Assembly (NCBI RefSeq): GCF_034259205.1
Contig: NZ_CP139487.1
Location: forward strand, 992,001-1,056,000
DNA from: Peredibacter starrii
Lineage (GTDB): Bacteria > Bdellovibrionota > Bacteriovoracia > Bacteriovoracales > Bacteriovoracaceae
Reading direction: 5' to 3'
DNA: 64,000 bases
A program made the translations under genes and the position numbers. Below are positions 11,968 to 36,243 of the stretch, one piece after another (positions within the stretch are counted from its first letter, which is position 1; the number at the start of each line of letters is the position of its first letter). The notes beneath the pieces are model-generated. The model had not been told where the DNA came from, searched no databases, and was given only the letters and a program-made list of their open reading frames with translations.

Positions 11968-12774
11968 ATGACAGTAAAAACTCTACCGGCCTTGTTGGAC
12001 AAAATGTGGCAAGACTATATCGCCATTAACCCATTAGCGAAGAAGATCAGTGACTTACTGGTTGGAGAAGGTGAGAAAATCCTGAACGATCACATTGCAC
12101 TTCGTACGTTTAACCACCCAAGAGTTGGGGTAGACGTGATGGCAAAGCCTTTTATCGAAGCTGGCTATAAGTACAGCGGTGATTATCATTTCCCGGAAAA
12201 GAAGCTTTATGCAAAACACTATGAGCATCCGGATCACACACTTCCTAAGATCTTTATCTCTGAACTTAAGCTGGAAGAGTTCTCACCAGAGCTAAGAAAA
12301 ACCGTAAATTCTCTGGTTGATCAGATTCCTGCCGGCGCTGAAAATGCTTATGATTTCGTTTCTACTGGCCGTCCTTGGAAAGTGACGACGAAGATTTACC
12401 AGGACCTTATGAAGGAAAGCGATTACGCGGCATGGGTTTCGGCCTTTGGTTACCGACCAAATCACTTTACTGTTTTTATCAACGAATTAAAAAAATACTC
12501 GGATATCCTGGTTTTGAACGATCACCTTAAAGCACAAGGTTTCAAACTGAATGCGAGTGGTGGGGAAGTGAAGGGCTCTAAAGAAGTATGTCTTGAGCAG
12601 TCTTCAACGTTGGCCAACAACATCGAAGTAACTTTTGATGATGGTAAACTTACAATCCCAGCTTGTTATTATGAATTCGCGAAACGCTATCCGATGAAAA
12701 ATGGACAGCTTTATCAGGGATTCGTTGCTGCTTCAGCAGACAAGATTTTCGAATCGACTAGTAAGGGTCAATGA
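11968..12774 (+). CDS. HglS-like 2-oxoadipate dioxygenase/decarboxylase (DUF1338)
   Basis: A 268-residue protein of the DUF1338 family. Studied members (HglS/YdcJ) are Fe(II) enzymes that turn 2-oxoadipate into D-2-hydroxyglutarate in lysine catabolism. The probable metal-binding histidines are in NDHIALRTF (about residue 39) and RPNHFTVF (about 165), and a glutamate candidate is in CYYEFAKRYP near the C-terminus. It is the short form, about 270 residues. The ATG at 11968 has an AGGAG site eight bases upstream and is preferred over the in-frame ATG at 11944. It is divergent from an aldehyde dehydrogenase gene, which may work in the same pathway. Confidence 0.8.
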   Translation: MTVKTLPALLDKMWQDYIAINPLAKKISDLLVGEGEKILNDHIALRTFNHPRVGVDVMAKPFIEAGYKYSGDYHFPEKKLYAKHYEHPDHTLPKIFISELKLEEFSPELRKTVNSLVDQIPAGAENAYDFVSTGRPWKVTTKIYQDLMKESDYAAWVSAFGYRPNHFTVFINELKKYSDILVLNDHLKAQGFKLNASGGEVKGSKEVCLEQSSTLANNIEVTFDDGKLTIPACYYEFAKRYPMKNGQLYQGFVAASADKIFESTSKGQ

Positions 12775-13139
12775 TTTAATTGCGCCGACATGTGCTTACG
12801 AATGGAGTCTTCCAATGACATAAAGTTGGGCTTCATAAGTAGGTCGTTGGCGCCAAGCTCTCGAACTTCACGTTTTAACTGTTCCGTTCCATGGCCCGTG
12901 AAAAAGATGATAGGTTGACTGAAACCACGTTCACGGGCGATCTTCATAAATTTTAGACCGTCCATTACTGGCATCTTGATATCAGATACAACGCAGTCAA
13001 TTTTCTTCTCTTCCAGAATTAAAAGAGCTTCTGCTCCGTTGTTGGCTATGAAAATTTCTTTCGCCTCATCTTCCAGCAATTCTTTCATGCTTTCTGATAG
13101 TTCCTCTTCATCGTCAACTAATAGTAGATTGCCTTTCAT
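12768..13139 (-). CDS. Single-domain response regulator (CheY-like)
   Basis: A 123-residue stand-alone receiver domain. Acidic pocket D9/D10 (LLVDDEEE), phosphoacceptor D53 (VVSDIKMPVMDG), switch threonine T81 (FFTGHG) and K103 (LMKPNF) are all present, so it should be phosphorylated by a histidine kinase. There is no output domain and no adjacent kinase gene, so its partner is unknown. The start at 13139 is preferred; two GTG codons upstream are in frame. The 3' end overlaps the HglS-like gene by seven bases, tail to tail. Confidence 0.9.
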   Translation of the reverse strand: MKGNLLLVDDEEELSESMKELLEDEAKEIFIANNGAEALLILEEKKIDCVVSDIKMPVMDGLKFMKIARERGFSQPIIFFTGHGTEQLKREVRELGANDLLMKPNFMSLEDSIRKHMSAQLNH

Positions 13140-13245
13140 AGAATTCACCACGTCGTCAGTATACCCTGAAATTACGCTTTCTTTTAGGCCTTGGAGCGAA
13201 ATTTAAGGACTTCTTTAGAATGAGCGAAGTGCTGAAGTCTGTTTT

Positions 13246-13386
13246 TTATTTACTTTGATTTTCTTTTTCTTCCTCTAATTTAGAGGCAAATTCGATGAGA
13301 ACGTAATCATTACTTGGATTCTCAGGACGAGAAGGGGCGCATGAAGACAGAATAGAGGCAGCGATTAAAAAATAAATGATTTTCAT
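13246..13386 (-). CDS. 46-residue lipoprotein, paralogue of the one at 27610
   Basis: A short reading frame with a lipoprotein signal peptide ending in a lipobox (ILSSC, cysteine 16). The mature part is only about 31 residues and contains SNDYVLIEFASKLEEE. The lipoprotein at 27610-27852 has SDDYVLIELASKLEED at the same place, which makes this a real gene rather than chance. Its ATG overlaps the stop of the upstream two-TM protein gene (ATGA), as in the other copy. Function is unknown; the strict conservation of the 16-residue motif suggests a binding surface for the membrane partner. Confidence 0.82.
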   Translation of the reverse strand: MKIIYFLIAASILSSCAPSRPENPSNDYVLIEFASKLEEEKENQSK

Positions 13387-13811
13387 TTTTTATCTTTCAG
13401 CTCGTTAATGATTGGCTCAAGTTCACGGAAAAAATCATTCTGACGAAATTTAAATGGTTCGTTTTTCAAGCTCGGATCCAACAGATGTTGTTTCATCTTA
13501 TAGATCGGGCCCGCAATACGATGTGAAATAATCAAAGTCACAACAAGAAGAAGAACGAAGTTTGCCACCGCCAGACCAATAAAAAGCATATCAAGATCAT
13601 GCTTCTGGGCCTCAAGAAATTGGTGAAAAACGTGACCTTCAGGAATTCCAACTTTGAGTCCTTTGTTTTTCATGTTCCAGAAAAACAAGTAAGTCGTAGA
13701 GTAGAGGCAGGCGGTAGAAAGAATGAAGAGGCCCACGAAGTAGCCAATGAGTTTTAATTGAAAAGGACCATTAATCAAAATTTTGTTCAGTGATCTTTCT
13801 TTAATGCTCAT
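13383..13811 (-). CDS. Two-TM membrane protein with HAMP-like SHRIAGPIY motif (copy 1)
   Basis: A 142-residue protein with two transmembrane segments (about 20-45 and 75-97) around a periplasmic loop of some 35 residues containing VGIPEGHVFHQFL. A short cytoplasmic tail starts with SHRIAGPIYKMKQHL. That motif is the start of a HAMP-type linker in two-TM sensory proteins, but no signalling domain follows; the protein ends about 45 residues later. It is clearly paralogous to 27849-28289. In both places it is ATGA-coupled to a small lipoprotein. Function is unknown; an envelope sensor or adaptor is a guess. Confidence 0.8.
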   Translation of the reverse strand: MSIKERSLNKILINGPFQLKLIGYFVGLFILSTACLYSTTYLFFWNMKNKGLKVGIPEGHVFHQFLEAQKHDLDMLFIGLAVANFVLLLVVTLIISHRIAGPIYKMKQHLLDPSLKNEPFKFRQNDFFRELEPIINELKDKK

Positions 13812-13844
13812 ACTTTCCTCAGAATCTTTCTACCGAAGGCCCTA

Positions 13845-14330
13845 TTACTTAGCTTTGTAAGGAAGAATTGTCTCAACGTTAATTGTGTCTTCAACACCAA
13901 CACCAAGATATTCAGCTTTGGCCATTTTAAAATCTGATGCCTTCACAGAGAACTTAGCAACAACTTCATCGTTCTTGGTTGTGTAAGTGATGTTAACGGG
14001 CCTTTTCTCGCCATTAACTTCCAGCATAGCAGTGGCCTTACCACCTTGGGCCTTAAGATCCGTCAGCGTGGCCTTCGGATGCTTTGATGAATTCATGTGC
14101 TTCCAGGTATGCTCATCACGAAGATCAATTCCTGTGTTGAAAGACTCGATTGAAACTGTGATTTTATCAGCAGTGAAGTTATCACCCTGTTTTACCAGGT
14201 TACCTTTCACTTTTTTACTAACGGCCTGAAATGAACCGGCCGGGCTTAATGTTACGAAAAGAGTCACTTTGCTTTCAGCAAGTGCGAAAGAAGAAATAAG
14301 AGCGAAACTAAGTGCTACGAACAATTTCAT
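13845..14330 (-). CDS. Periplasmic YceI-family protein (copy 1)
   Basis: A 161-residue exported protein (signal peptide ending SFALA) of the YceI family. Family members form a lipocalin-like barrel that binds polyisoprenoids or other amphiphiles. Typical segments are GNLVKQGDNFTADKITVSIES, shown here in part, FNTGIDLRDEHTWKHMNSS and the C-terminal KAEYLGVGVEDTINV. The paralogue at 34771-35262 shares the LGxGVEDxxxV ending. It lies 32 bases after astA and 33 bases before the two-TM protein gene, probably in one transcript. Confidence 0.88.
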   Translation of the reverse strand: MKLFVALSFALISSFALAESKVTLFVTLSPAGSFQAVSKKVKGNLVKQGDNFTADKITVSIESFNTGIDLRDEHTWKHMNSSKHPKATLTDLKAQGGKATAMLEVNGEKRPVNITYTTKNDEVVAKFSVKASDFKMAKAEYLGVGVEDTINVETILPYKAK

Positions 14331-14362
14331 GCATGACCTCTAAGAGTATGTTGATGAGAGAG

Positions 14363-15424
14363 TTATTTCTTTTTAGGAGAAGCCTTCTTCTTTATCGGCT
14401 GTGCCTTCGGTTTAAATGAAACAAAACGGATTTTGTCCCCGACGCGAAGTTTGAGTGCAGCTGCTGTCACTCCCGATACTTTGTAGCCGCCCGATTTGAG
14501 CTTAACCACGCCACCTAGGGCAGAACGGAAATTGCCACTGGTACGAGAGATGATAAAGATTTCTGACTTGAAGTTCTTATCGGAAACTTCAGCGATTTCT
14601 CCAATAGTGCTTTCTTTGATTGCACGAATATTGTCCACTTCAGCGATAAGAACCGGACCTGGCTCAAAAATCCCCACCAGACCAGAGAATCGGAAACCTT
14701 CTTGCTCGAGAATGCGTTTAGCGGGTTCAGTATTTGGATGAACCTTACCAACCACAAATTGTGCGTCTTCCGGAAGAAGATTGGTAATGATTGGATACTT
14801 CGGCATCAGCTCTTCAATGAAGCGTTTATTCTTCACATACAAGTAATCGGCCGTCGGAAAATCAATTTTAAAGAAGTTCGCACCGACTGCGTCCCAAAAA
14901 GGAGAGTGGCCCGAATCGTTTACCATTCCGCGCATCTCGGCGATCACCTGATCTTCGAAGAACTTGCGGTTCTCGGCGATAAAGAGGAATCGAGAGAGAG
15001 AAAGGAAACGACCGTTTTGCGAATTACGGAAATCCGGGTGGAGATAGAGTGAACATATCTCCGCCGGACCGTTGTGAATAAAGTGAAAATGAAGTGAAGT
15101 AACATCATTTTTTACATGAATAGATTTCGACTCGTGATGAGTTTTTTCCATTCGGTAGAAGTAGTAAGGCTCGAATCCACCAATCTTGGAGATGATGGCA
15201 CATACACCCACTAATCTTCCCGTAAAAAGCTCTTCCATGACGAAGAGGTAGTCTTCACCACCCGGACCATCTTCACGATGCAAGAAGCTTCGTTCAGACA
15301 TACGGATTCTTTTTTTAAGGACCTCAGGGTCCTTAGGTAGAGACGTGAGACCATGCCCGGATTTCTCCAGGAGTTCCATCAGACCATCCAGGTCTTTTTG
15401 TTCGATCGGACGGATGATGAACAT
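14363..15424 (-). CDS. astA: Arginine/ornithine N-succinyltransferase AstA
   Basis: Transfers succinyl from succinyl-CoA to arginine or ornithine. The 353-residue protein begins MFIIRPIEQKDLDGLMELLE and keeps long AstA-type stretches: GHGLTSLP, ICSLYLHPDFR, VIAEMRGMVND, HSPFWDAVGANFF and KVHPNTEPAKRILEQEGF. The C-terminus has an extra lysine-rich tail (KKKASPKKK). The start at 15424 is two bases past the upstream aminotransferase stop; an upstream in-frame start at 15466 lies inside that gene. No astB or astE is in the window, so a full arginine succinyltransferase pathway cannot be shown here. Confidence 0.92.
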   Translation of the reverse strand: MFIIRPIEQKDLDGLMELLEKSGHGLTSLPKDPEVLKKRIRMSERSFLHREDGPGGEDYLFVMEELFTGRLVGVCAIISKIGGFEPYYFYRMEKTHHESKSIHVKNDVTSLHFHFIHNGPAEICSLYLHPDFRNSQNGRFLSLSRFLFIAENRKFFEDQVIAEMRGMVNDSGHSPFWDAVGANFFKIDFPTADYLYVKNKRFIEELMPKYPIITNLLPEDAQFVVGKVHPNTEPAKRILEQEGFRFSGLVGIFEPGPVLIAEVDNIRAIKESTIGEIAEVSDKNFKSEIFIISRTSGNFRSALGGVVKLKSGGYKVSGVTAAALKLRVGDKIRFVSFKPKAQPIKKKASPKKK

Positions 15425-15426
15425 GC

Positions 15427-16815
15427 TTACTCGATCTCTAGAAGTGTTTTTTCGATGATGGCGCAAACTTCATCGATATGTTTTTCCTCAGTCACAAGAG
15501 CTGGCATAAGGAAACGCACACGTGCAGTAGGGTGACCACCGGCAAGGAACGAAAGCACACCGTTTTCAAAGAGTTTCATTGTGAATGCCTTAGACTTCGG
15601 CTCGTCTCCTTTAAAGAGAGACATACCAACCATCACACCAACACCATACGGACCTTGAAGCTTCTCAGGATATTTCTGAGCGATCTTTTCAAGGTTCTTC
15701 TTAAAGTGGTTATGAAGACGATTGTTCTTCCCGTTTTCACCAAGAAGACCACCGTTAACCATTTCATTGATAACATAGTAAGCGGCCGCGATCTGAGACG
15801 CTGAACCTGTGAATGTCTGAGACATTAGACCCGGCTTCGGCTTGTGTTCATCATTATAAAGAGTGGCACAAACTTGAGAGTTCTTACCAACTGATACCAC
15901 GTCTACGTGTTTATCAAGTTTGAAGTATTGGAACGCAAATAGTTCTGAAGTACGACCGAAAGTCTGAACTTCATCCACCATCACAGAGATGTTGTTCTCT
16001 TTACATACGGCGATCAGGGCCTCGAAGAATTCAGTGTGACCGACCCATGAACCGTTCTCACCCTGAATAAGCTCCATGATGAAACCAGCGTGATGGCCAG
16101 GGAAGCGAGTGATGTATTTTTTCATCGCTTTCACTGCAGCATCGATTGAGGCCTGGTGATTATTAGCATCGTAGAATGGGATATAATCCACATCTACCGT
16201 CTTAGGAAGACCAACACGGTAAGCACCTTTATCTGTGACCCATGCCATACCTAGAGTACGACCGGCGAAACATTTCTCGAATGCGAAGAAGCGAGAAGCA
16301 GGGTTACGTTTTTGGAAAATCATTTTGAAGGCGTTCTCGTTTGCCATTGCACCTGAAGTGGTAAGGAAAACGTTTTTTACACCAGCGCCGTATTTACAAG
16401 CTTGCTTCGAGAACAACTCAAGAAGTTTCGCCGTATCAACGTTCTGCTGAAGGTGACCGTTCATAACAGTGTTTGAAATTGCACCGTTAATTTGGGCCTC
16501 AATAACACCTGGGTGAGAGTGGCCCATAGAGTGAACGCCAATCCCTGTGATGAAATCGTATTTAACTGAACCATCTCCAAGTTCAACGAGAGGGCCGTTA
16601 CCAATTCCTGAACCAAGGTAATTATAAAAAAGAGCTCCACCACGAAACTCCGCTACTTTTTTAAGAAGAGCATCGTACGATTCTTTAAGTTCAGGATTAC
16701 CTGGTTTAACACCAGTAATAGTTTTCTGATGTTCAGTCAGTGCTTCTTTGATAAGTTGTTTTGCTTTTTCTAAACGAGGATCTTGAAAGAAACCATCGGC
16801 AATTGTTTTGGCCAT
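15427..16815 (-). CDS. Class III PLP-dependent aminotransferase (ornithine/lysine omega-type)
   Basis: A 462-residue class III aminotransferase. Visible motifs: GVHSMGHSHPGV, the PLP phosphate-binding TTSGAMANENAFK, the aspartate of MVDEVQTFGR, the likely PLP lysine in SVGKNSQVCATLY, and TFTGSASQIAAAY. Operon placement directly before astA suggests the AstC step (succinylornithine to succinylglutamate semialdehyde). The lysine region GKxSQVC is unlike the ALGGGFPI of AstC and closer to lysine 6-aminotransferase, so the amino donor is open. The start is at 16815 with a CTGGAG site upstream. A plus-strand gene diverges at 16971. Confidence 0.82.
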   Translation of the reverse strand: MAKTIADGFFQDPRLEKAKQLIKEALTEHQKTITGVKPGNPELKESYDALLKKVAEFRGGALFYNYLGSGIGNGPLVELGDGSVKYDFITGIGVHSMGHSHPGVIEAQINGAISNTVMNGHLQQNVDTAKLLELFSKQACKYGAGVKNVFLTTSGAMANENAFKMIFQKRNPASRFFAFEKCFAGRTLGMAWVTDKGAYRVGLPKTVDVDYIPFYDANNHQASIDAAVKAMKKYITRFPGHHAGFIMELIQGENGSWVGHTEFFEALIAVCKENNISVMVDEVQTFGRTSELFAFQYFKLDKHVDVVSVGKNSQVCATLYNDEHKPKPGLMSQTFTGSASQIAAAYYVINEMVNGGLLGENGKNNRLHNHFKKNLEKIAQKYPEKLQGPYGVGVMVGMSLFKGDEPKSKAFTMKLFENGVLSFLAGGHPTARVRFLMPALVTEEKHIDEVCAIIEKTLLEIE

Positions 16816-27613: not shown

Positions 27614-27852
27614 GGGTGATGTGGATCCATTGGTTCGTGCATAGCTGGTTCCTCAGGAGCTTCGGCTGCAGACTCTTCAAGTCCCTTGGCCGACGTATCA
27701 TAAGGTATCTTGTGGAGACGGTGATAGTCTTCTTCAAGTTTAGAAGCGAGCTCAATTAAAACGTAATCGTCACTTGGTTCCTGTTCACTGGTCTGCTCCG
27801 GTTTAGAGCAGGCAACAAAAAGCAATAAAGCACTTAATGAAATGAATTTCAC
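27610..27852 (-). CDS. 80-residue lipoprotein, paralogue of the one at 13246
   Basis: Lipoprotein signal peptide with lipobox LLFVAC (cysteine 15). The motif SDDYVLIELASKLEED is nearly identical to SNDYVLIEFASKLEEE in the 46-residue lipoprotein at 13246. After it this copy continues for about 40 residues, ending in an acidic, proline- and histidine-rich tail (EEPAMHEPMDPHHP) that the other lacks. The tail could bind metal. Its ATG overlaps the stop of the two-TM protein gene (ATGA). Confidence 0.82.
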   Translation of the reverse strand: MKFISLSALLLFVACSKPEQTSEQEPSDDYVLIELASKLEEDYHRLHKIPYDTSAKGLEESAAEAPEEPAMHEPMDPHHP

Positions 27853-28289
27853 TTCATTTTCTCCTTCAGGCCGTCGACTAGAGGTTCGAGTTCTTTGAAA
27901 AAATCTTTATCTCGAAGTTTAAAGTTCTCTGAGTCCGATTTCATTTCGGCGAGATGTCTTTTGAGTTTGAAAATTGGACCAGCAATTCGGTGAGACACAA
28001 TAAAGCCCGTACCGATCAGAAGTAAAAAGTTGAACACGACTAAAGCGATGAACAACATATCCAGGTCGGCCTTTTGGTTGGCCAAAAAGCGGAAGAAGAC
28101 GTGACCTTTAGGAATACCCACACTTAGTGCCTTCTCTCCCAGACGCCAGAAAAAGAGATAGCTAACAGAGTAGAGTGACAGGGTGGTCACAACAAATAGT
28201 CCTACAAAGTAACTAAGCAGTTTTAATTGAAATTCCGGGTTAAGAAGATAGTTCTTGAGTTGTCTTCGATACGGTCTTTGATCTGCCAT
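27849..28289 (-). CDS. Two-TM membrane protein with HAMP-like SHRIAGPIF motif (copy 2)
   Basis: A 146-residue paralogue of 13383-13811 with the same layout: a basic N-terminus, a first helix in FQLKLLSYFVGLF, a loop with VGIPKGHVFFRFL and KADLDMLFI, a second helix, SHRIAGPIFKLKRHL, and FFKELEPLVDGLKEK at the end. Conservation is strongest in the loop motif and the SHRIAGPI junction. It is ATGA-coupled to its small lipoprotein. The module stands alone here, between two convergent or divergent unrelated genes. Function is unknown. Confidence 0.82.
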   Translation of the reverse strand: MADQRPYRRQLKNYLLNPEFQLKLLSYFVGLFVVTTLSLYSVSYLFFWRLGEKALSVGIPKGHVFFRFLANQKADLDMLFIALVVFNFLLLIGTGFIVSHRIAGPIFKLKRHLAEMKSDSENFKLRDKDFFKELEPLVDGLKEKMK

Positions 28290-28423
28290 TTTTCCTCGGC
28301 GCTTGTACGTCTTGATAGAAGTTTAAGCGAACATTATAAAGTGCTGATTTTCCCAAGGAAATCTCTTTTTGGTTGACTGAAAAAGTCGCTCAAGAATTTG
28401 ACCTCGCTTACGATAAGTTTACT

Positions 28424-29896
28424 ATGAAGCACCTTATATTATTAAGTTTTTTGGCATTACCACAACTCCTTCAGGCCCAAGTGACGGCGTCCGATGAATT
28501 GAAACGCCTGAATAAGTGCTATGGCCTCTTTGTTCGTGAACGTATTCCTACTGATCACCCTTTATGGGTGGCAGTTTCAAGAGGAACAAAATCAGGAACA
28601 GATGCGTGTATGGAGCTTTTTGATAAGGCGAAACTCACAAGCTCTGGTGAGCTGCCTAAAACAAACGGCAATTATGATTATGAAGGAATGAGAGTTCTGA
28701 ATTCTTTTCTTCGTTTTCATAAATCACAATTTGAAATTCCTGATTTCTCAACTGCAGTTGGTAACGGTATCGATCGCTTCACTCGTGACGTTACAGATTC
28801 AAATGAACCTGCTTACCACTTTCTTTATTCGTTGTTCGCTCCTGAGCAAAAGTTCTCGGATGTTGTGACGAGAGATTTTTCTCTACGTGCTAAACGTTAC
28901 TCGATGAAGTCTGAGCGCACACGCAGTGTTGCTTCAGTTGCACTACCTGTGATCATGCAAGGTGTGTATAAAACAGTAAAAGACGCCAATGGAAACAGCG
29001 TTCTCGTTCCTGATGATGCAAAAGGGGGAGCTTCTCCTTTTGAACCAGTTCTACCAGAAACAGGTATCCTGATCGGACTTGATGTAGATCAGGAAGACAA
29101 TAGTATTGAACCAACACATTTCAATCCTAACTTCGGTACTCTTAAATTTACTTCAACCAATATCAACCAACATTTAGGTGGTGGGATCATTGGTTCGCAG
29201 GGATATCTTCTTGGTAACCTTGGTAAAGACGGCTTCACGAACGGTGGTACGAACTTGTTCCGTCGTTGGGGGAAGCACGTGATGGCAGATTTACTTTGTC
29301 GCGATCTTCCGGCACTTCGTTCAAAAGACGTGGTGGCAGAAGTTGACGCTGAATCTACGATTGCGTTCCGCACTGGTATCTCGTGTATGGGCTGTCACTC
29401 TTCAATGGACCCATTAGCAGGTGCCGCAAGAAACTCGCGAGCTGCATGGACCAGTAACGCCGGTATGTCCTTTAACCGTGTGAAGTTCATTGGCCATCGT
29501 ACACCGGATCTTGGGTATGCTGAATTCCCATCTAAGGTTGCAGACGCAAACTTCCATCGTCGTCCGGCCAATGGAAGACTGTATTACAGAAGCTACAATG
29601 GTGATCTCGTATTAAATGAAGTTGAAGGTCTACAACAGTTGGGTGAATCAATCGCCAAGACTAATGATTATTATGTATGTGCGGCCAAACGCTATTACCG
29701 TTTCCTGACTGGAATTAATGTTAATCTTGCCGACCTTGGTAACATCAACACTCCTGCACTATCACCTGGTGAAAAATTTCAACGTGATCGAGTGATCAAT
29801 ATGGGGCTGGATCTCAAGTCTCACCAATCACTAAGAACACTGATAAAAAATATTATTAAATCTGATGCCTTCATCTATCCAGATCGTGGAGTTTAA
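28424..29896 (+). CDS. Exported DUF1588-like protein with a single haem c motif
   Basis: A 490-residue exported protein (signal peptide MKHLILLSFLALPQLLQA). Near residue 325 it has RTGISCMGCHSSMDPLAG, a CxxCH haem c site in the setting seen in DUF1588/DUF1592 proteins (CxxCHxxxDP). The rest is mostly helical. The C-terminal part contains YYVCAAKRYYRFLTGINVNL and ends with SDAFIYPDRGV, also typical of that group. It is followed two bases later by a Tat-exported DUF1501-like gene, the usual kind of partner for such proteins in planctomycetes and myxobacteria. The role of the pair is not established. The ATG at 28424 is chosen for the signal peptide; the frame opens at 28373. Confidence 0.8.
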   Translation: MKHLILLSFLALPQLLQAQVTASDELKRLNKCYGLFVRERIPTDHPLWVAVSRGTKSGTDACMELFDKAKLTSSGELPKTNGNYDYEGMRVLNSFLRFHKSQFEIPDFSTAVGNGIDRFTRDVTDSNEPAYHFLYSLFAPEQKFSDVVTRDFSLRAKRYSMKSERTRSVASVALPVIMQGVYKTVKDANGNSVLVPDDAKGGASPFEPVLPETGILIGLDVDQEDNSIEPTHFNPNFGTLKFTSTNINQHLGGGIIGSQGYLLGNLGKDGFTNGGTNLFRRWGKHVMADLLCRDLPALRSKDVVAEVDAESTIAFRTGISCMGCHSSMDPLAGAARNSRAAWTSNAGMSFNRVKFIGHRTPDLGYAEFPSKVADANFHRRPANGRLYYRSYNGDLVLNEVEGLQQLGESIAKTNDYYVCAAKRYYRFLTGINVNLADLGNINTPALSPGEKFQRDRVINMGLDLKSHQSLRTLIKNIIKSDAFIYPDRGV

Positions 29897-29898
29897 TT

Positions 29899-31572
29899 AT
29901 GTCTGATAAGAAAAAATTTGAATTAGATCGAAGGACCTTATTGAAAAACATTCTCCTCGGCACAGGTGTTGTTTCATCTGCCCCGTTCGATATGTTTTTA
30001 ACCAACATGATGGTGAATCTTCTTCAATCAGGCACGGCCCATGCTGCCGGTGAAGAGGCGGCCTTTCAGGATTTTAAATTCATCAGTCTTGTGATGGCCG
30101 GCGGGGCCCCACGTTACTACTGGGATCTTCCTGTTCAACCAAATGGTGATGATCAAATAGTGTCCAACCCTATGGTGGTCAACAAATTCGTTAATAATGG
30201 TTCAACCATTAATGCCACCTATGCTACGACGAAAGTAGGGGACTATTATATGCCTCACGTGTGGAGTGGTAATATTGCCACGACTGCGGGTGTGGTTCCC
30301 ATGTCTCAACTGGGACAAAACATGATGATCATGAGAGGGATTGATCTCCAAATCGATAGCCATCCAATCGATCGTGAACGTCAAATCGCTCCAGTTCCGG
30401 GTGGTATTTCACTAACTGGTTTAGTTGCCGATCATGCTACAACTCCTATTCCAGCAGTTGGTAGAAATGGTGGTGGTAACTTCTATCGTGGAGAAAAAGG
30501 CATTGCCTATGTTGAGCTTGCCGGAACCAATCCTCTAACGAGTGCTTTGGCCCCATTCTCGCCACTGAGTTCGATGAAGACCATCAATAATGGTTCAGTG
30601 GAGAGTGCCATTGATGCCGCTTTAAAAAGAATGTCGGCCACATCAGCTGATAAGAGCAAGTTTCTTCCAAGTACTTTCGCCACTCGTTTTAACGCCAAAA
30701 AAATGATGATGAAGTCCTTCGGGAACCTTCAACTAAACTACAACAATCTTGTTGCAAAATATCGCTCGCTCATTAGTCGTGCTTTTGAAGCGAAAGACAG
30801 TTTGTCTCTGGCCGGTGTTGACGATATGGCAATTCCTGGTCTTGGTACTAGTCCATACCGCGTTCTGGAAGCTGAGTATCTGACAAGCACAGATATCAGA
30901 ACAATGACTGATGCAATGACGGGTATTACGAATCTTGCGGAAGGTATGGCGATCGCAGAATTCATGGTGACTCAAGGTCTTTCTTCTTCTGTGAACATTC
31001 AGGCCGATAACTTCAGTAACGTGCTTTATCAGTCTGTATATAACATGACTACAAAAGTAACTCGTACAAATGTTCGTGGCGCCCACACAATGGACGTTCA
31101 CTTCACGGGTTCACATGCTGGAACAATTCTTTTCTCTCGTTACTACCGTGCTGTTTCGGCCTGTTTATATGAATTAATCGCTCAGCTAAAATCAGTTCAA
31201 GTAGGTTATGGTCAGAATCTTTTTGACCGCACAGTACTTTCTGTAACATCTGAATTTAACCGTATTCCTCGTACAGATGGTAGTGGTGCAGACCATGGCT
31301 GGCAGGGATCAAACTTCACCGTGCTTTCAGGTATGATCGACAATCTAACAGTTGTTGGTAACGTGAAAACGAATGAAGGTTCTCGTGGTACTTGGGGTCT
31401 TGCCGGTCCAATGGAAGAGTTAAACGGCCGTGAGGCAATCATCGGTAATGCTTCGTCGACTGTTTCGGCCATGCTCGAAGTAAAAACTCCGACTCCGAAC
31501 GATCAGGCCTTTGCGTATAAAGAAAACGGCAAAGTGAAACTGGCCATTAAGTCTTTAAAGAACGTTGCTTAA
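29899..31572 (+). CDS. Tat-exported DUF1501-like protein
   Basis: A 557-residue protein starting with a twin-arginine signal (ELDRRTLLKNILLGTGVVSS, cut near AHAAG). This indicates export in a folded state, often with a cofactor. The C-terminal region has SEFNRIPRTDGSGADHGWQG, matching the DUF1501 pattern (E-F-x-R-x-P ... G-x-D-H-G), related to the alkaline phosphatase/sulfatase fold. It is the middle gene of a three-gene set with a haem c protein before and a lipoprotein after. Substrate unknown. Confidence 0.8.
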   Translation: MSDKKKFELDRRTLLKNILLGTGVVSSAPFDMFLTNMMVNLLQSGTAHAAGEEAAFQDFKFISLVMAGGAPRYYWDLPVQPNGDDQIVSNPMVVNKFVNNGSTINATYATTKVGDYYMPHVWSGNIATTAGVVPMSQLGQNMMIMRGIDLQIDSHPIDRERQIAPVPGGISLTGLVADHATTPIPAVGRNGGGNFYRGEKGIAYVELAGTNPLTSALAPFSPLSSMKTINNGSVESAIDAALKRMSATSADKSKFLPSTFATRFNAKKMMMKSFGNLQLNYNNLVAKYRSLISRAFEAKDSLSLAGVDDMAIPGLGTSPYRVLEAEYLTSTDIRTMTDAMTGITNLAEGMAIAEFMVTQGLSSSVNIQADNFSNVLYQSVYNMTTKVTRTNVRGAHTMDVHFTGSHAGTILFSRYYRAVSACLYELIAQLKSVQVGYGQNLFDRTVLSVTSEFNRIPRTDGSGADHGWQGSNFTVLSGMIDNLTVVGNVKTNEGSRGTWGLAGPMEELNGREAIIGNASSTVSAMLEVKTPTPNDQAFAYKENGKVKLAIKSLKNVA

Positions 31573-31585
31573 CCAGGAACAAAAC

Positions 31586-32224
31586 ATGTTGAGAAGTAGT
31601 TCATTCATTTTAGCTCTTCTTATGCTTGCTGCTTGTCAGCCGGCACAGGAAGAACTTAAATTCGATGCTCCGAATGCGTTGGTAGAAAAGCAGCAGCAGT
31701 TGAATTATGCTTCGGAAATTCAGATGGCCGATCGGGCCTATGTTGAATCGGTTTTGCTTCAAATCTTCAATGCTTCAGGAACATCGGCCGCGACCTATAT
31801 TCAGTCTGATATTTATCAGAAGGTCGAGTTTGGTGGGGCCTGTGATTTTTATTCCACTTCGGACCTAAGTCCTACAACGGTAGAGTTCCCTCGTGAGCAA
31901 TGTTATACCGGGATGGGTGTGGTCCAAAACCCTAATAACAATCCTATGAGATATTCACTTACGACCAAAGTATGTGAGCGTCTGGTCGTGGATAGCGCGC
32001 GAATGGATGTAGTAAAAGCGAAGATCTTCTCCAACAACCAATGGGAAGCTCCAAGCGATGCTTCCATTCAAAGGGCCTGGTCTTTGTTCTTTCCAATTGA
32101 AAGCGCTTCGCCAGCAGTCGTGAAAGACCTAAAAGCGATTGCGGATGTGAGCAGTGGGAATGAGGACGCCTGGAAGAACATTATTCTGACGATGTGTATT
32201 TCGCCAGAATGGCAGGTTCTTTAG
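31586..32224 (+). CDS. Lipoprotein, third gene of the DUF1588/DUF1501 set
   Basis: A 212-residue lipoprotein (lipobox LMLAAC, cysteine 18). No known domain is visible. Four more cysteines occur (GACDFY, REQCYTG, TKVCERL, LTMCISP), probably in disulfides. The ATG at 31586 has an AGGA site and begins the signal peptide, so it is preferred to the in-frame ATG at 31565 inside the previous gene. The conserved position suggests it anchors or assists the DUF1501 and haem proteins. The 3' end overlaps the convergent gene by four bases. Confidence 0.78.
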   Translation: MLRSSSFILALLMLAACQPAQEELKFDAPNALVEKQQQLNYASEIQMADRAYVESVLLQIFNASGTSAATYIQSDIYQKVEFGGACDFYSTSDLSPTTVEFPREQCYTGMGVVQNPNNNPMRYSLTTKVCERLVVDSARMDVVKAKIFSNNQWEAPSDASIQRAWSLFFPIESASPAVVKDLKAIADVSSGNEDAWKNIILTMCISPEWQVL

Positions 32225-33252
32225 AACTGTCGGCCGAATCCTAGACCCCAAAAGCTTTCCTGCTTTTTGAAGTACTGGCCAAACTCAGTTCTTAAGTACC
32301 ATTGTCCAAATTGCCAGCGCGAATTGATGGTAGCGAGGTAAGACAACGGGCTCTCTTCACTCACTTTATAATCAGGGTCAGAAGGCTGAGTCAGGTTCTG
32401 TGACGTATAGATAAGTGGTAGCCCAATACCAATTCTGGACTTTGAGCTGGAAACGATCATAGAGGCCATTGGGCCCAGTTTAATGCCGGTAGCAGGGACA
32501 TTCTGCTGATAAGTGATATTCGAATCACCATAAGCGCTTACACCACCCACACCCATCAAGAAACAGCCGTCGAGAAGGAAGTGATAAAAACCGTTCTCGA
32601 TACCAACGTCACCACCTACGCAGTAACCCTGGTTCGTCATGATAAGTCCGGTGTTTTTGCCGGAACTTGAACGATGAAGAGTAGCATCGTGCTGCCAGCT
32701 CACGTATTGAACGTTTACACTCGCTGAAAAACGATAAATTTTATCTTCCAAATACTGAAGGTGGGCCATGACCTTGTTGTTAAGCTTTTCAGCTTTACCT
32801 TCACGGAATTCAAGCTCACTTAGAATTTGGCGGAAAATAACGTAGATCTTTTGGTCTTTTTCCAGACCCGGGCCCAGCTCATCGTAGTCCAACAAGATGT
32901 TGGCGTAGTCGTTATAGAGGTTCCAGTAATGAATAGGAAGTGACTTAGGATAATCGTCGACATCCAGAGTTTCTTTCTCGCGAATTTTCTTTCTGATGTC
33001 AGCGTGCTCTTTGGCATAGTCTTTTTTTAGAATACGAAAAACAACTTTGGCGTCCTCACGATACTTTCCAAGTTTCCTGAAAGAGTGAGAGATCATGATC
33101 AGTTCTTTCGTAGAAAGCTCGCCCCATTTATCAGGTGAACCATAAGTCGCAACAATGCGCTTGAATTCTTTGCGTTCAAACAACGGCTGGACATTTGCCG
33201 CCATGGCGACATTCATCGAGACAAGAATGAGAGCAACTAACTTAAGCATCAT
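32221..33252 (-). CDS. Probable outer-membrane protein with helical N-terminal domain
   Basis: A 343-residue exported protein (signal peptide ending NVAMA). Residues about 20-165 are helical and charged (FERKEFKRIVATYGS, SFRKLGKYREDAKVVFRILK), reminiscent of TPR-like repeats. From about 170 the sequence alternates as in a beta-barrel (FSASVNVQYVSW, GIENGFYHFLLDGCFLMG) and ends with FWGLGFGRQF, an aromatic C-terminus as in outer-membrane barrels. The start at 33252 overlaps the upstream stop (ATGA). It is the last gene of the YceI-cytochrome-porin operon. Confidence 0.75.
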   Translation of the reverse strand: MMLKLVALILVSMNVAMAANVQPLFERKEFKRIVATYGSPDKWGELSTKELIMISHSFRKLGKYREDAKVVFRILKKDYAKEHADIRKKIREKETLDVDDYPKSLPIHYWNLYNDYANILLDYDELGPGLEKDQKIYVIFRQILSELEFREGKAEKLNNKVMAHLQYLEDKIYRFSASVNVQYVSWQHDATLHRSSSGKNTGLIMTNQGYCVGGDVGIENGFYHFLLDGCFLMGVGGVSAYGDSNITYQQNVPATGIKLGPMASMIVSSSKSRIGIGLPLIYTSQNLTQPSDPDYKVSEESPLSYLATINSRWQFGQWYLRTEFGQYFKKQESFWGLGFGRQF

Positions 33253-34403
33253 AACCATAAGTGTGTCTGGAACAAGTACATCCAGCTGTCTTTCGTGGAA
33301 GCTTCTGGAGAAAAGTTCCGGGTATTATAAATATCTAATCGAAGTTCCACTCGCTGAATCGGGAAGGTCTGAAGTGCCGGACCCCAACGAACTGCATAGG
33401 ATTTTTCTTCTATGTCGCGTTTGATGTATTCAACGTTAGTAAGGAAGTAGACTCCGCGTACAGGTCTTAAGTAGGCCTGTAGAAGTCCATATCGGGCAAC
33501 TGTTTCTTCCTCTGAAAGTGTGACCTTCTGAGTGGTCTGTCCAAGTTCAAGTAAGAGGGCGGAGCCTTCTTTTAAATTGAAACGCGCATGTCCGGCCACT
33601 GAAGTGAGTTCGTTATAATCGTTTTTAGATGTGATGAACGAAGCACCCAGGCGGTGAATATCAAAAACTGTTTTTTCGAAAGTTGCGCTATAACCCTTCA
33701 TCTGAATGTCTTTATCTTGCGATAAATTTCCAAGGAAGAACTGAGCTCCGCCTTCCCAACCTTCACTTACATAGTGAAGAGTTGCTCCGTGGGTCTGATC
33801 GTTTTGAGCGACTTGAGGAAGGGCACGGCTGTAAGCAATGTGTTCAATAACTCTTAAACCGTAGATCTTATCCATCAAACCAACATAGGCACCCAGACGA
33901 GGTGTGATTCGGTAACCCATGTAGTACTCGCGGCTGCGCCATTCGCCTTGTTCTTTTCCAGGAACCGTTGATTGAGGTTCAGGGGCATAACCAATGTTCC
34001 CCACCATGACGAATTTATCGTTCTCACCGAACTTCAAAATCACACGGGCATCGGCCTGCATGTTGATCCATTCTTTGGTCTCTGATTCTTTTGAGCCTGG
34101 GTTACGAACGAGCTGGAAACCACGATAGTTAATCTGTGTTCTTAACCAGTTCTGCTTCGGCTTACGAAATAAAAATCCAGAAGTGTAGGCGATCTTTTCT
34201 TCGTCCCAGCTTTTTGGATAAAGCGCACGTGAAGAAATAGTTGTTGCCGATACCGCACGACCATAATCTGTCAGTGGTCCGCCACCAAAGGGATTGTAGT
34301 GACAGTTTAAACACGAGGTATAGTTGTGTCCGATGAAGTTCGGATAAGCTTCGGCGGTAAAATTAATAAATAATGAAGCGAGAAGTAGGACGATGAATTT
34401 CAT
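33249..34403 (-). CDS. Haem c-bearing outer-membrane beta-barrel protein
   Basis: A 384-residue exported protein (signal peptide ending FTAEA). Just after the signal comes NYTSCLNCHYNPFGGGPLTDYGR, a CxxCH haem c site. The rest (about 90-384) is an alternating beta-barrel sequence ending SWMYLFQTHLWL, with the aromatic end of an outer-membrane barrel. A haem near the mouth of a barrel could carry electrons across or to the outer membrane, as in porin-cytochrome systems, but here both parts are in one chain. It is ATGA-coupled on both sides. Confidence 0.8.
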   Translation of the reverse strand: MKFIVLLLASLFINFTAEAYPNFIGHNYTSCLNCHYNPFGGGPLTDYGRAVSATTISSRALYPKSWDEEKIAYTSGFLFRKPKQNWLRTQINYRGFQLVRNPGSKESETKEWINMQADARVILKFGENDKFVMVGNIGYAPEPQSTVPGKEQGEWRSREYYMGYRITPRLGAYVGLMDKIYGLRVIEHIAYSRALPQVAQNDQTHGATLHYVSEGWEGGAQFFLGNLSQDKDIQMKGYSATFEKTVFDIHRLGASFITSKNDYNELTSVAGHARFNLKEGSALLLELGQTTQKVTLSEEETVARYGLLQAYLRPVRGVYFLTNVEYIKRDIEEKSYAVRWGPALQTFPIQRVELRLDIYNTRNFSPEASTKDSWMYLFQTHLWL

Positions 34404-34774
34404 GGAATTTCTTCAATCCATTTTCTCAGATGCTGATATTCAGCATCGGGAAGAGCACTTCCACCTTGAGGCATGTTTGAACTGGCCCCACCGTAATTGA
34501 TAATACGCTGAACGAAGTATGAATTATCCGGATCGCCTCTTTGGATCATGCCTGAATCAAGCCAAGCGGCATTGTCCTGATAGGTCGCCCAAATATCATG
34601 GATGGTCGAACTGTGGCAGCTGACACAACGGTTTTGAATGATATTGTAGGCCTGAGCAAAATTAGGATCACTTTCATTCAGGACCACTGGACCATATTTA
34701 ATACGATCTGCAGAATTCGAATTATAATCCTGACAGCTTACCAGAATGAGGAGAGGGAGAAGAAACTTCATCAT
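34400..34774 (-). CDS. Mono-haem c-type cytochrome lipoprotein
   Basis: A 124-residue lipoprotein (lipobox ILVSC, cysteine 14). It has a single cytochrome c domain: CVSCH haem site at about residues 50-54, and a likely distal methionine in SSNMPQGG. It would sit on a membrane facing the periplasm and pass electrons between membrane donors and the haem-barrel protein encoded next. It is ATGA-coupled to the YceI gene before and the barrel gene after. Confidence 0.85.
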   Translation of the reverse strand: MMKFLLPLLILVSCQDYNSNSADRIKYGPVVLNESDPNFAQAYNIIQNRCVSCHSSTIHDIWATYQDNAAWLDSGMIQRGDPDNSYFVQRIINYGGASSNMPQGGSALPDAEYQHLRKWIEEIP

Positions 34775-35262
34775 TTTTTCTCGAAATAGTATTGAACTGA
34801 GACTTTCACTTTATCTTCAACTCCAATACCGAGGTACTGGGCCTTTGGAAGATTGAAGCTCGAACAAAGAACTTCAAACTTAGCATCCACGTATTTGTCG
34901 TGAGCTGTGTAAGTGATATCTACTGGTTTAGTAATGCCATTGATTGTGATGTTGGCCTTGGCCGTGCCTTTAGTGCCCTTAAGTTCCGTAATGTCGATTC
35001 TTGAATGGGGAAGCTTAGGTCCGCCTCCGATGTATTCTGCAAAATGCTTATCACGAAGACCATTGTCGGTTCTGAATGAATCTGCAAAAACGCTGATTCT
35101 ATCAGCAGTGAAGTCTTCTCCACGCTTCAGCAGACGCCCGCGGGCCTTCTCACTGGTGGCCACAAATGAGCCTGTGTTCGGAACCAGGACCGCATTTACC
35201 CGAATAATATTTTGGGCATGCAGTACCGTCGAAAAAAAGAGGAAAAATACTAGAAGTTTCAT
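34771..35262 (-). CDS. Periplasmic YceI-family protein (copy 2)
   Basis: A 163-residue exported YceI protein (signal peptide ending VLHAQ) with KRGEDFTADRISVFADSFRT, ITINGITKPVDITYTAHD and AQYLGIGVEDKVKV, all aligned with copy 1 at 13845. It opens a four-gene operon with a cytochrome, a haem-barrel protein and an outer-membrane protein. YceI proteins bind isoprenoid-type lipids, so a quinone-related role beside cytochromes is attractive but inferred. The start is uncertain among ATGs at 35262, 35268 and 35277. Confidence 0.85.
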   Translation of the reverse strand: MKLLVFFLFFSTVLHAQNIIRVNAVLVPNTGSFVATSEKARGRLLKRGEDFTADRISVFADSFRTDNGLRDKHFAEYIGGGPKLPHSRIDITELKGTKGTAKANITINGITKPVDITYTAHDKYVDAKFEVLCSSFNLPKAQYLGIGVEDKVKVSVQYYFEKK

Positions 35263-35424: not shown

Positions 35425-35829
35425 ATGAAACTCATGCTTACTCTCACTTTGCTTTTGTCTTCATTCACTGTTTTTGCCAAAGATCAGATGCTCTCCGATA
35501 TTATTCAGGAGAAGAGATGTCATCTTGAAGTTGCTCAAGATGTGATCATTCAGGCCTCACAACCCTCAGTCACTGTCGGTAATGCTTTATTGGTCATGAA
35601 GCAGAAAGATACGGCCAATAATCGTCGCCTTAAGGCAGGAAGAGTTTTAAAAATTTCTTCGAACGATGAGAATTATATTTTCTTCAACGATGCCCATGTT
35701 GAGAGCATTTGTGTTTATGAGCCGCATTTTTGTCATGAACTTGGCCGAATTAAGGCATCTGATTTTGAGCGCTGGTCTCAAAACAAATTGAAACTTGTTT
35801 GTAACGGTAAACCGACAATTGATATCTAA
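35425..35829 (+). CDS. Small secreted protein, tandem pair copy 1
   Basis: A 134-residue exported protein (signal peptide ending FTVFA). It shares with the next gene the order CHxEVxxDVxI, NRRLxAGRxxxI, an aspartate-containing IFFxDxxVxxxC, then a second cysteine pair and a final LxLVC. Four cysteines in matching positions suggest two disulfides. I do not recognise a family. It is followed nine bases later by its paralogue. Confidence 0.78.
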   Translation: MKLMLTLTLLLSSFTVFAKDQMLSDIIQEKRCHLEVAQDVIIQASQPSVTVGNALLVMKQKDTANNRRLKAGRVLKISSNDENYIFFNDAHVESICVYEPHFCHELGRIKASDFERWSQNKLKLVCNGKPTIDI

Positions 35830-35838
35830 GGAAACATT

Positions 35839-36243
35839 ATGAAACTTATTTTAAGCGCACTCTTTGTTCTTTCTAGTCTTTCAGCTTTCGCGGGAGATCT
35901 TCGTTGGGAAGTTGAAGATAAAAATTGCCATGTGGAAGTTTTAGAAGATGTTTATATTCTTCACTCAACTCAAGATGTGATTTTAGATAAGGCCCGTCTT
36001 ACGGCGCTTTCAATCAATCGAAATGAGAATCGTCGCCTACGTGCTGGTCGAATCATTCCAGTTCGTACCGTGACTGATGATCGAATTATTTTCCGCGATC
36101 ATACGATGCGTGACATGTGTATTTTTGCTGGAAATAACGGCATGTGTTTGTGGACGAGAAATCTGGATGTTTCTGACATCGCGGCCTTCTCTCAAGGAAT
36201 GTTACAAATGGTTTGTGTCCCGAAAGGCACAGTTGATGCATAA
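35839..36243 (+). CDS. Small secreted protein, tandem pair copy 2
   Basis: A 134-residue exported protein (signal peptide ending SAFAG), the same length as the previous gene and clearly homologous: ENRRLRAGRIIPVR, DRIIFRDHTMRDMCIF, SDIAAFSQGMLQMVCVPKG. Overall identity by eye is about a third, so the duplication is not recent. Function is unknown. A strong bidirectional terminator follows. Confidence 0.78.
   Translation: MKLILSALFVLSSLSAFAGDLRWEVEDKNCHVEVLEDVYILHSTQDVILDKARLTALSINRNENRRLRAGRIIPVRTVTDDRIIFRDHTMRDMCIFAGNNGMCLWTRNLDVSDIAAFSQGMLQMVCVPKGTVDA

Follow-up and report, generated by a model that had tools for sequence, protein, structure and literature searches.

A four-gene operon on the minus strand (35262-32221) of a 64,000-nt stretch of Peredibacter starrii DNA (contig NZ_CP139487.1, positions 992,001 to 1,056,000; hereafter the window, to which coordinates refer unless a related locus is named) encodes a YceI-family protein, a monohaem cytochrome c lipoprotein, a protein joining a haem c module to an outer-membrane barrel (the haem-barrel) and an outer-membrane protein, P4. 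In our assessment the operon probably encodes a redox module of the outer membrane whose core is a Cyc2-like cytochrome-porin. The haem-barrel itself, judged by its sequence, is a Cyc2-like sister variant and not a strict Cyc2. The proposal starts from features that were computed directly: the gene set, the haem motifs, the barrel folds, the similarity of the haem module to that of Cyc2 and the phylum-wide co-occurrence of the genes. The operon is made up as follows.

34771..35262 (open reading frame, ORF, from 35277), minus strand: YceI-like periplasmic protein (YceI1), first gene (Pfam PF04264)
34771..34774, minus strand: ATGA overlap of the YceI stop and the cytochrome start
34400..34774, minus strand: monohaem cytochrome c lipoprotein of 124 residues, second gene (alignment of 20 orthologues)
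34400..34403, minus strand: ATGA overlap of the cytochrome stop and the haem-barrel start
33249..34403, minus strand: haem-barrel, third gene, with a signal peptide, a short N-terminal haem c module and a predicted 16-strand porin-like barrel (Cyc2-like)
34299..34313, minus strand: CLNCH haem c motif, residues 31-35 of the haem-barrel (CxxCH invariant)
33249..33252, minus strand: ATGA overlap of the haem-barrel stop and the P4 start
32221..33252, minus strand: P4, predicted by structure model to have an N-terminal helical TPR-like domain and a C-terminal 8-strand OmpA/OprF-type barrel (barrel about 32224-32739)

The sequence-only reading of the window had made its case depend on a conserved CLNCH motif and on a predicted barrel, and both were found. 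The signal peptide of the haem-barrel ends in AEA and the haem motif follows twelve residues further. The gene has one CxxCH at every locus, and C31, C34 and H35 are kept in all 59 homologues, collected across Bdellovibrionota. The predicted structure has 16 strands, with a mean predicted local distance difference test score (pLDDT) of 61 overall and mostly 70-82 in the barrel, part of which is lower. It matches OprO (4rjw; Z 19.0, 3.2 A over 265 residues) and OprP (2o4v; Z 18.4). By sequence, neither phmmer nor a profile search against solved structures gave a real match, and neither the haem-barrel nor P4 had a real match in Pfam or NCBIfam; a DUF6445 match to the haem-barrel was dismissed (19.0 bits, below the cut-off of 24).

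A haem c motif and an outer-membrane barrel are thus present in a single chain (CLNCH 31-35 and the modelled 16 strands). The sequence-only reading had set this apart from the separate porin and cytochromes of known conduits, but the design is not new: in Cyc2 a monohaem cytochrome and a 16-strand porin are fused, and OprO and OprP served as its structural templates (PMC8406198), and the two haem modules are significantly alike. We compared the haem-barrel profile with five Cyc2-like proteins taken from plasmids, found with a consensus peptide modelled on the published motif. The comparison aligned the haem module only, AYPNFIGHNYTSCLNCHYNPFGGGPLTDYGR against A-x-P-x-F-A-R-Q-T-G-x-x-C-x-x-C-H...P-x-L-T-x-Y-G-R. 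The score was 42.2, as against a mean of 23.9 and a maximum of 37.2 in 200 column shuffles that kept CxxCH, and 25.7 and 27.7 for two unrelated cytochrome families. The hhalign probability was 91.5, and 95.7 for the haem region alone. Upstream of the haem site P-x-[FYLM] is kept in 45 of the 59 haem-barrels, and 51 have an L[NT]xYGR-type element after a Gly-rich insertion; Cyc2 has PXL shortly after CXXCH. Among six plasmid loci with Cyc2-like proteins that were opened, a c-type cytochrome gene lay downstream in five and upstream in the sixth, a pairing of the same kind as in the operon. Searches of plasmids with the haem-barrel found no relative.

Cyc2 is recognised by AXPXFAR[QK][TY], CXXCH and PXL, and the published collection was screened for that signature (PMC8406198). 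We do not file the haem-barrel as Cyc2, because AR[QK][TY] is absent and the Gly-rich insertion is present; haem-barrels would have been left out of the collection by the same screen.

Ten positions are invariant among the 59 sequences: C31, C34, H35, G40, G42, R94, M115, G175, H188 and G253. The contexts of R94, M115 and H188 were inspected in distant haem-barrels; the alignment at M115 is less convincing in the two most divergent (L070 and L071). If the N-terminus is periplasmic, the model would place His188 between strands 5 and 6, in extracellular loop 3. In classical porins loop L3 narrows the pore. His188 or Met115 is a natural candidate for a distal haem ligand or a substrate site, and the haem region is modelled with too little certainty for us to choose between them.

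The conserved operon, the YceI family assignment and the lipoprotein cytochrome c are supported by Pfam or profile matches, orthologue alignments and phylum-wide linkage. YceI1 passes PF04264 (41.2 bits, cut-off 23.7), and the profile of its orthologues matches the solved YceI structures 7bwl, 2fgs, 1y0g and 3hpe (E about 1e-6 to 1e-5). An isoprenoid is present in most solved YceI structures, with ubiquinone-8 among the ligands (PMC9113575). The whole genome holds ten YceI-family matches (E 0.001 or better), which is unusually many for a single genome. The cytochrome has a lipobox cysteine (Cys14), and C50, C53, H54 and M101 never vary in 20 orthologues; this is the class I cytochrome c pattern, CxxCH (50-54) with a methionine towards the C-terminus. 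Met101 is likely the distal haem ligand, which would make the protein a His/Met cytochrome c. Its score against PF13442 is below the cut-off (22.7 bits, cut-off 27), and its profile matches cytochrome c-551/552 at E 0.006. A glutamine directly follows the lipid cysteine. In E. coli this arrangement directs sorting to the outer membrane, a rule that may not apply to Bdellovibrionota.

The P4 model has a mean pLDDT of 88. Its barrel matches the N-domain of OprF (4rlc; Z 17.1, 1.8 A over 121) and its helices match TPR/BamD folds (Z 9.5-10).

The four-gene operon was confirmed with its coordinates and all three overlaps; the one between haem-barrel and P4 depends on a P4 start at 33252, the longest P4 ORF beginning at 33258. 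A single overlap of this kind is an ordinary sign, because four-base start/stop overlaps are possible in 8 of the 43 same-strand gene pairs of the window (three of the eight are the operon junctions). At related loci the -4 overlap is the usual arrangement but not the only one; gaps of +6, +12, 0 and +53 were also seen. The four genes form a single operon in some Bdellovibrionota families, while in others haem-barrel and P4 are convergent to YceI and the cytochrome. The ATGA overlaps suggest translational coupling, whereas the strict stoichiometry read from them earlier is not supported, given how common they are in the window and how the four genes fall into separate units in other families.

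The search for the gene set in other Bdellovibrionota, proposed with the sequence-only reading, found the haem-barrel in 236 of 368 genomes (E 1e-5 or better; profile built from 35 haem-barrel sequences), usually beside a small outer-membrane barrel, a cytochrome and YceI. Of 58 haem-barrel loci, 44 had a YceI within 4 kb, 48 a lipoprotein-family cytochrome and 44 P4. These counts are lower bounds, as the simple ORF caller missed partners (e.g. at L039 and L058, where tblastn found them). With ten YceI matches in 4.15 Mb, chance alone would place YceI near about 2% of randomly chosen genes. Within the genus P4 goes with the haem-barrel: it is present in 16 of 16 genomes with a close haem-barrel, and convincingly in one of ten without. 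In the literature searched on Bdellovibrio and Bacteriovorax, nothing directly describes the operon. One Bdellovibrionota metagenome-assembled genome is listed in a published table with an unspecified iron-oxidation match (PMC12501874).

The family has further variants. A second haem-barrel subfamily (L056-L064) has the motif CxxCHxSPxGGG and no P4; its order is mostly two-CxxCH cytochrome, YceI, haem-barrel, again with ATGA overlaps. At L053 (9629-11593, minus strand) an LspA-like protein with a HAMP-like end is apparently in frame with the haem-barrel in one ORF, and other genomes of the same genus have comparable open frames of 655-663 amino acids. A separate LspA-like gene adjoins the operon at L037, L051, L052, L082, L084 and L085.

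We propose the following mechanism. The haem-barrel would be exported, acquire one covalent haem c near its mature N-terminus and fold as a porin of 16 strands, whose periplasmic mouth or lumen the haem module probably plugs. A small redox-active substrate would enter the pore and exchange an electron with the haem; Fe(II) is only one candidate. The electron would then pass to the outer-membrane-anchored His/Met cytochrome c lipoprotein, to a soluble cytochrome c and to a haem-copper oxidase. P4 would serve the porin as an accessory protein in the outer membrane, and YceI would supply or buffer a quinone-like isoprenoid, donating to the cytochromes or recharged by them. We infer this electron path, its direction (inward is preferred), the location of the proteins and the YceI ligand, and with them electron transfer to or across the outer membrane. 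Two COX1-type oxidases and a cytochrome c assembly protein in the genome count as support for the oxidase sink, and the recurrence of the module over most of the phylum points to a possible route for electron movement at the cell surface.

Several observations weigh against this mechanism. The haem region of the haem-barrel model has pLDDT below 50, so the model does not fix the place of the haem module in the pore. The barrel parts of the haem-barrel and Cyc2 are not alignable by sequence, and AR[QK][TY] occurs in 0 of the 59 homologues. The Bdellovibrionota described so far live as aerobic predators and are not known to be lithotrophs (PMC13200544). In two magnetotactic Bdellovibrionota metagenome-assembled genomes, which were not checked for haem-barrels, FeGenie run with its defaults reported no iron gene (PMC13200544).

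A bolder version, which we offer tentatively and hold to be rather doubtful, is that haem-barrels form a distinct haem-porin class across Bdellovibrionota that oxidises or reduces a small extracellular or prey-derived substrate in the pore, with the loop-3 histidine as distal ligand or substrate site and a YceI-bound quinone as redox buffer. This would give these bacteria a surface electron route of a kind not known from them.

The constant presence of YceI, even in the P4-less subfamily, also suits a defence against lipid peroxides, in which a quinol carried by YceI would quench peroxyl radicals at the outer membrane, its redox state being controlled by the cytochromes. There is a precedent in Burkholderia, where the cytochrome b561 LcoA is proposed to set the redox state of the YceI lipocalin BcnA (PMC9113575). 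We regard this defence as improbable: Pfam found no cytochrome b561 domain in the operon or in the three genes convergent to it, a porin with its own haem would be unnecessary, and no stress genes were seen in the neighbourhoods examined.

Some of the genes around the operon, listed here, bear on another explanation, redox or metal sensing.

27849..28289, minus strand: HAMP-like membrane protein with two transmembrane segments; homologues lie directly after P4 in related operons
28373..29896, plus strand: neighbour D, convergent, a DUF1588/DUF1585-type (PSCyt3-PSD2) protein with one CxxCH (weak Pfam match)
29899..31572, plus strand: neighbour E, convergent, a secreted DUF1501-like protein with a twin-arginine translocation (Tat)-like signal (Pfam)
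31565..32224, plus strand: neighbour F, convergent, a lipoprotein gene with a 4-base convergent overlap with P4
13383..14330, minus strand: second HAMP-like gene and second YceI gene (YceI2)

In the sensing scheme haem-barrel and P4 would signal to the HAMP-like inner-membrane protein and a CheY-like regulator. The order YceI, cytochrome, haem-barrel, P4, HAMP-like, a 60-amino-acid protein and REC at L038, L040 and L065 fits it, and REC passes Pfam PF00072 (87.8 bits). For the HAMP-like protein, however, Pfam gives no HAMP match, and kinase and output domains are absent. REC is missing at many loci; in the window the HAMP-like and REC genes lie apart from the haem-barrel. Sensing is quite improbable in our view. 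Least probable is a plain substrate-specific porin whose haem is structural or ligand-binding and takes no part in electron transfer. The barrel model does fit phosphate, sugar and general porins equally well, but the constant cytochrome c neighbour, at 48 of the 58 loci, and the fully conserved haem motif argue for redox use.

The D-E-F trio adjoins the haem-barrel in several other families. Relatives of D at L055 and L080 pass the PSD2 cut-off, and the relative of E at L055 reaches 25.1 bits (cut-off 27). The six loci with a separate LspA-like gene have another conserved trio by the operon, comprising a CxxCH protein, a Tat-exported protein of ~470-520 amino acids and a lipoprotein. We rejected it as a divergent D/E/F trio: the plan is similar, but profile comparison shows nothing beyond the shared signal. 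Upstream of the operon, the window has two tandem paralogous genes (35425-35829 and 35839-36243) for secreted proteins of 134 amino acids, about one third identical and with no Pfam match.

At 12768-16815 the window has a site of ancestral type, with genes for REC, a HAMP-like protein, YceI2, an AstA-like protein and a class-III aminotransferase, arranged as in sister genomes. In those genomes the site reads aminotransferase, AstA, YceI, cytochrome, haem-barrel, P4, HAMP, REC. In the window cytochrome, haem-barrel and P4 are absent from it, and YceI2 and the HAMP-like gene are about 36 bases apart. In a tree YceI2 groups with the YceI proteins of its own site (some branches are weakly supported), while YceI1 and the L036 protein form a fast-evolving pair (support 0.999). 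The emptied site and the tree together indicate that the redox module moved or was replaced in this lineage.

If the Cyc2-like reading of the operon is true, a one-chain haem-porin is present in most of a predatory phylum, and current searches for Cyc2 would exclude it because they demand AR[QK][TY]. Cytochrome-porins would then extend from iron-oxidising lithotrophs to predators, with a genetically tractable host for their study. The invariant barrel residues His188 and Met115 would be handles on haem-in-porin function, which is apparently unsettled for Cyc2 too.

Among known systems, the 8-strand barrels of OprF, OmpA and OmpW have the same fold as P4 in its C-terminal half (Z 13-17), to which P4 adds the TPR-like helical domain; this domain varies in length, and Bdellovibrio versions are barrel only. 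MtrCAB, MtoAB and PioAB also associate a cytochrome with an outer-membrane barrel, but they use a 26-strand porin and separate decahaem proteins, whereas the operon has a single haem within the porin chain; MtrB_PioB (PF11854) has no match in the genome. BcnA-LcoA likewise encodes a YceI lipocalin together with a cytochrome, but there the cytochrome is of the b561 type in the inner membrane, while those of the operon are c-type and predicted to be at the outer membrane. The cytochrome-porin iron oxidases Cyc2/Cyt572 share several features with the haem-barrel: a signal peptide, one CxxCH close to the start of the mature protein, an upstream P-x-F whose register is the same (C at +10 from that P), a downstream L-T-x-[YF]-G-R, a 16-strand porin that matches OprO/OprP and a neighbouring c-type cytochrome gene. 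Unlike Cyc2, the haem-barrel lacks AR[QK][TY] and carries a Gly-rich insertion of three residues behind its haem site (NPFGGGP). His188 and Met115 are invariant in its barrel, which cannot be aligned with Cyc2 by sequence, and its operon partners are YceI and P4. The cytochrome-porin design is thus already known from Cyc2; new are the spread of the haem-barrel over Bdellovibrionota, its partners YceI, cytochrome and P4, and the invariant His188 and Met115.

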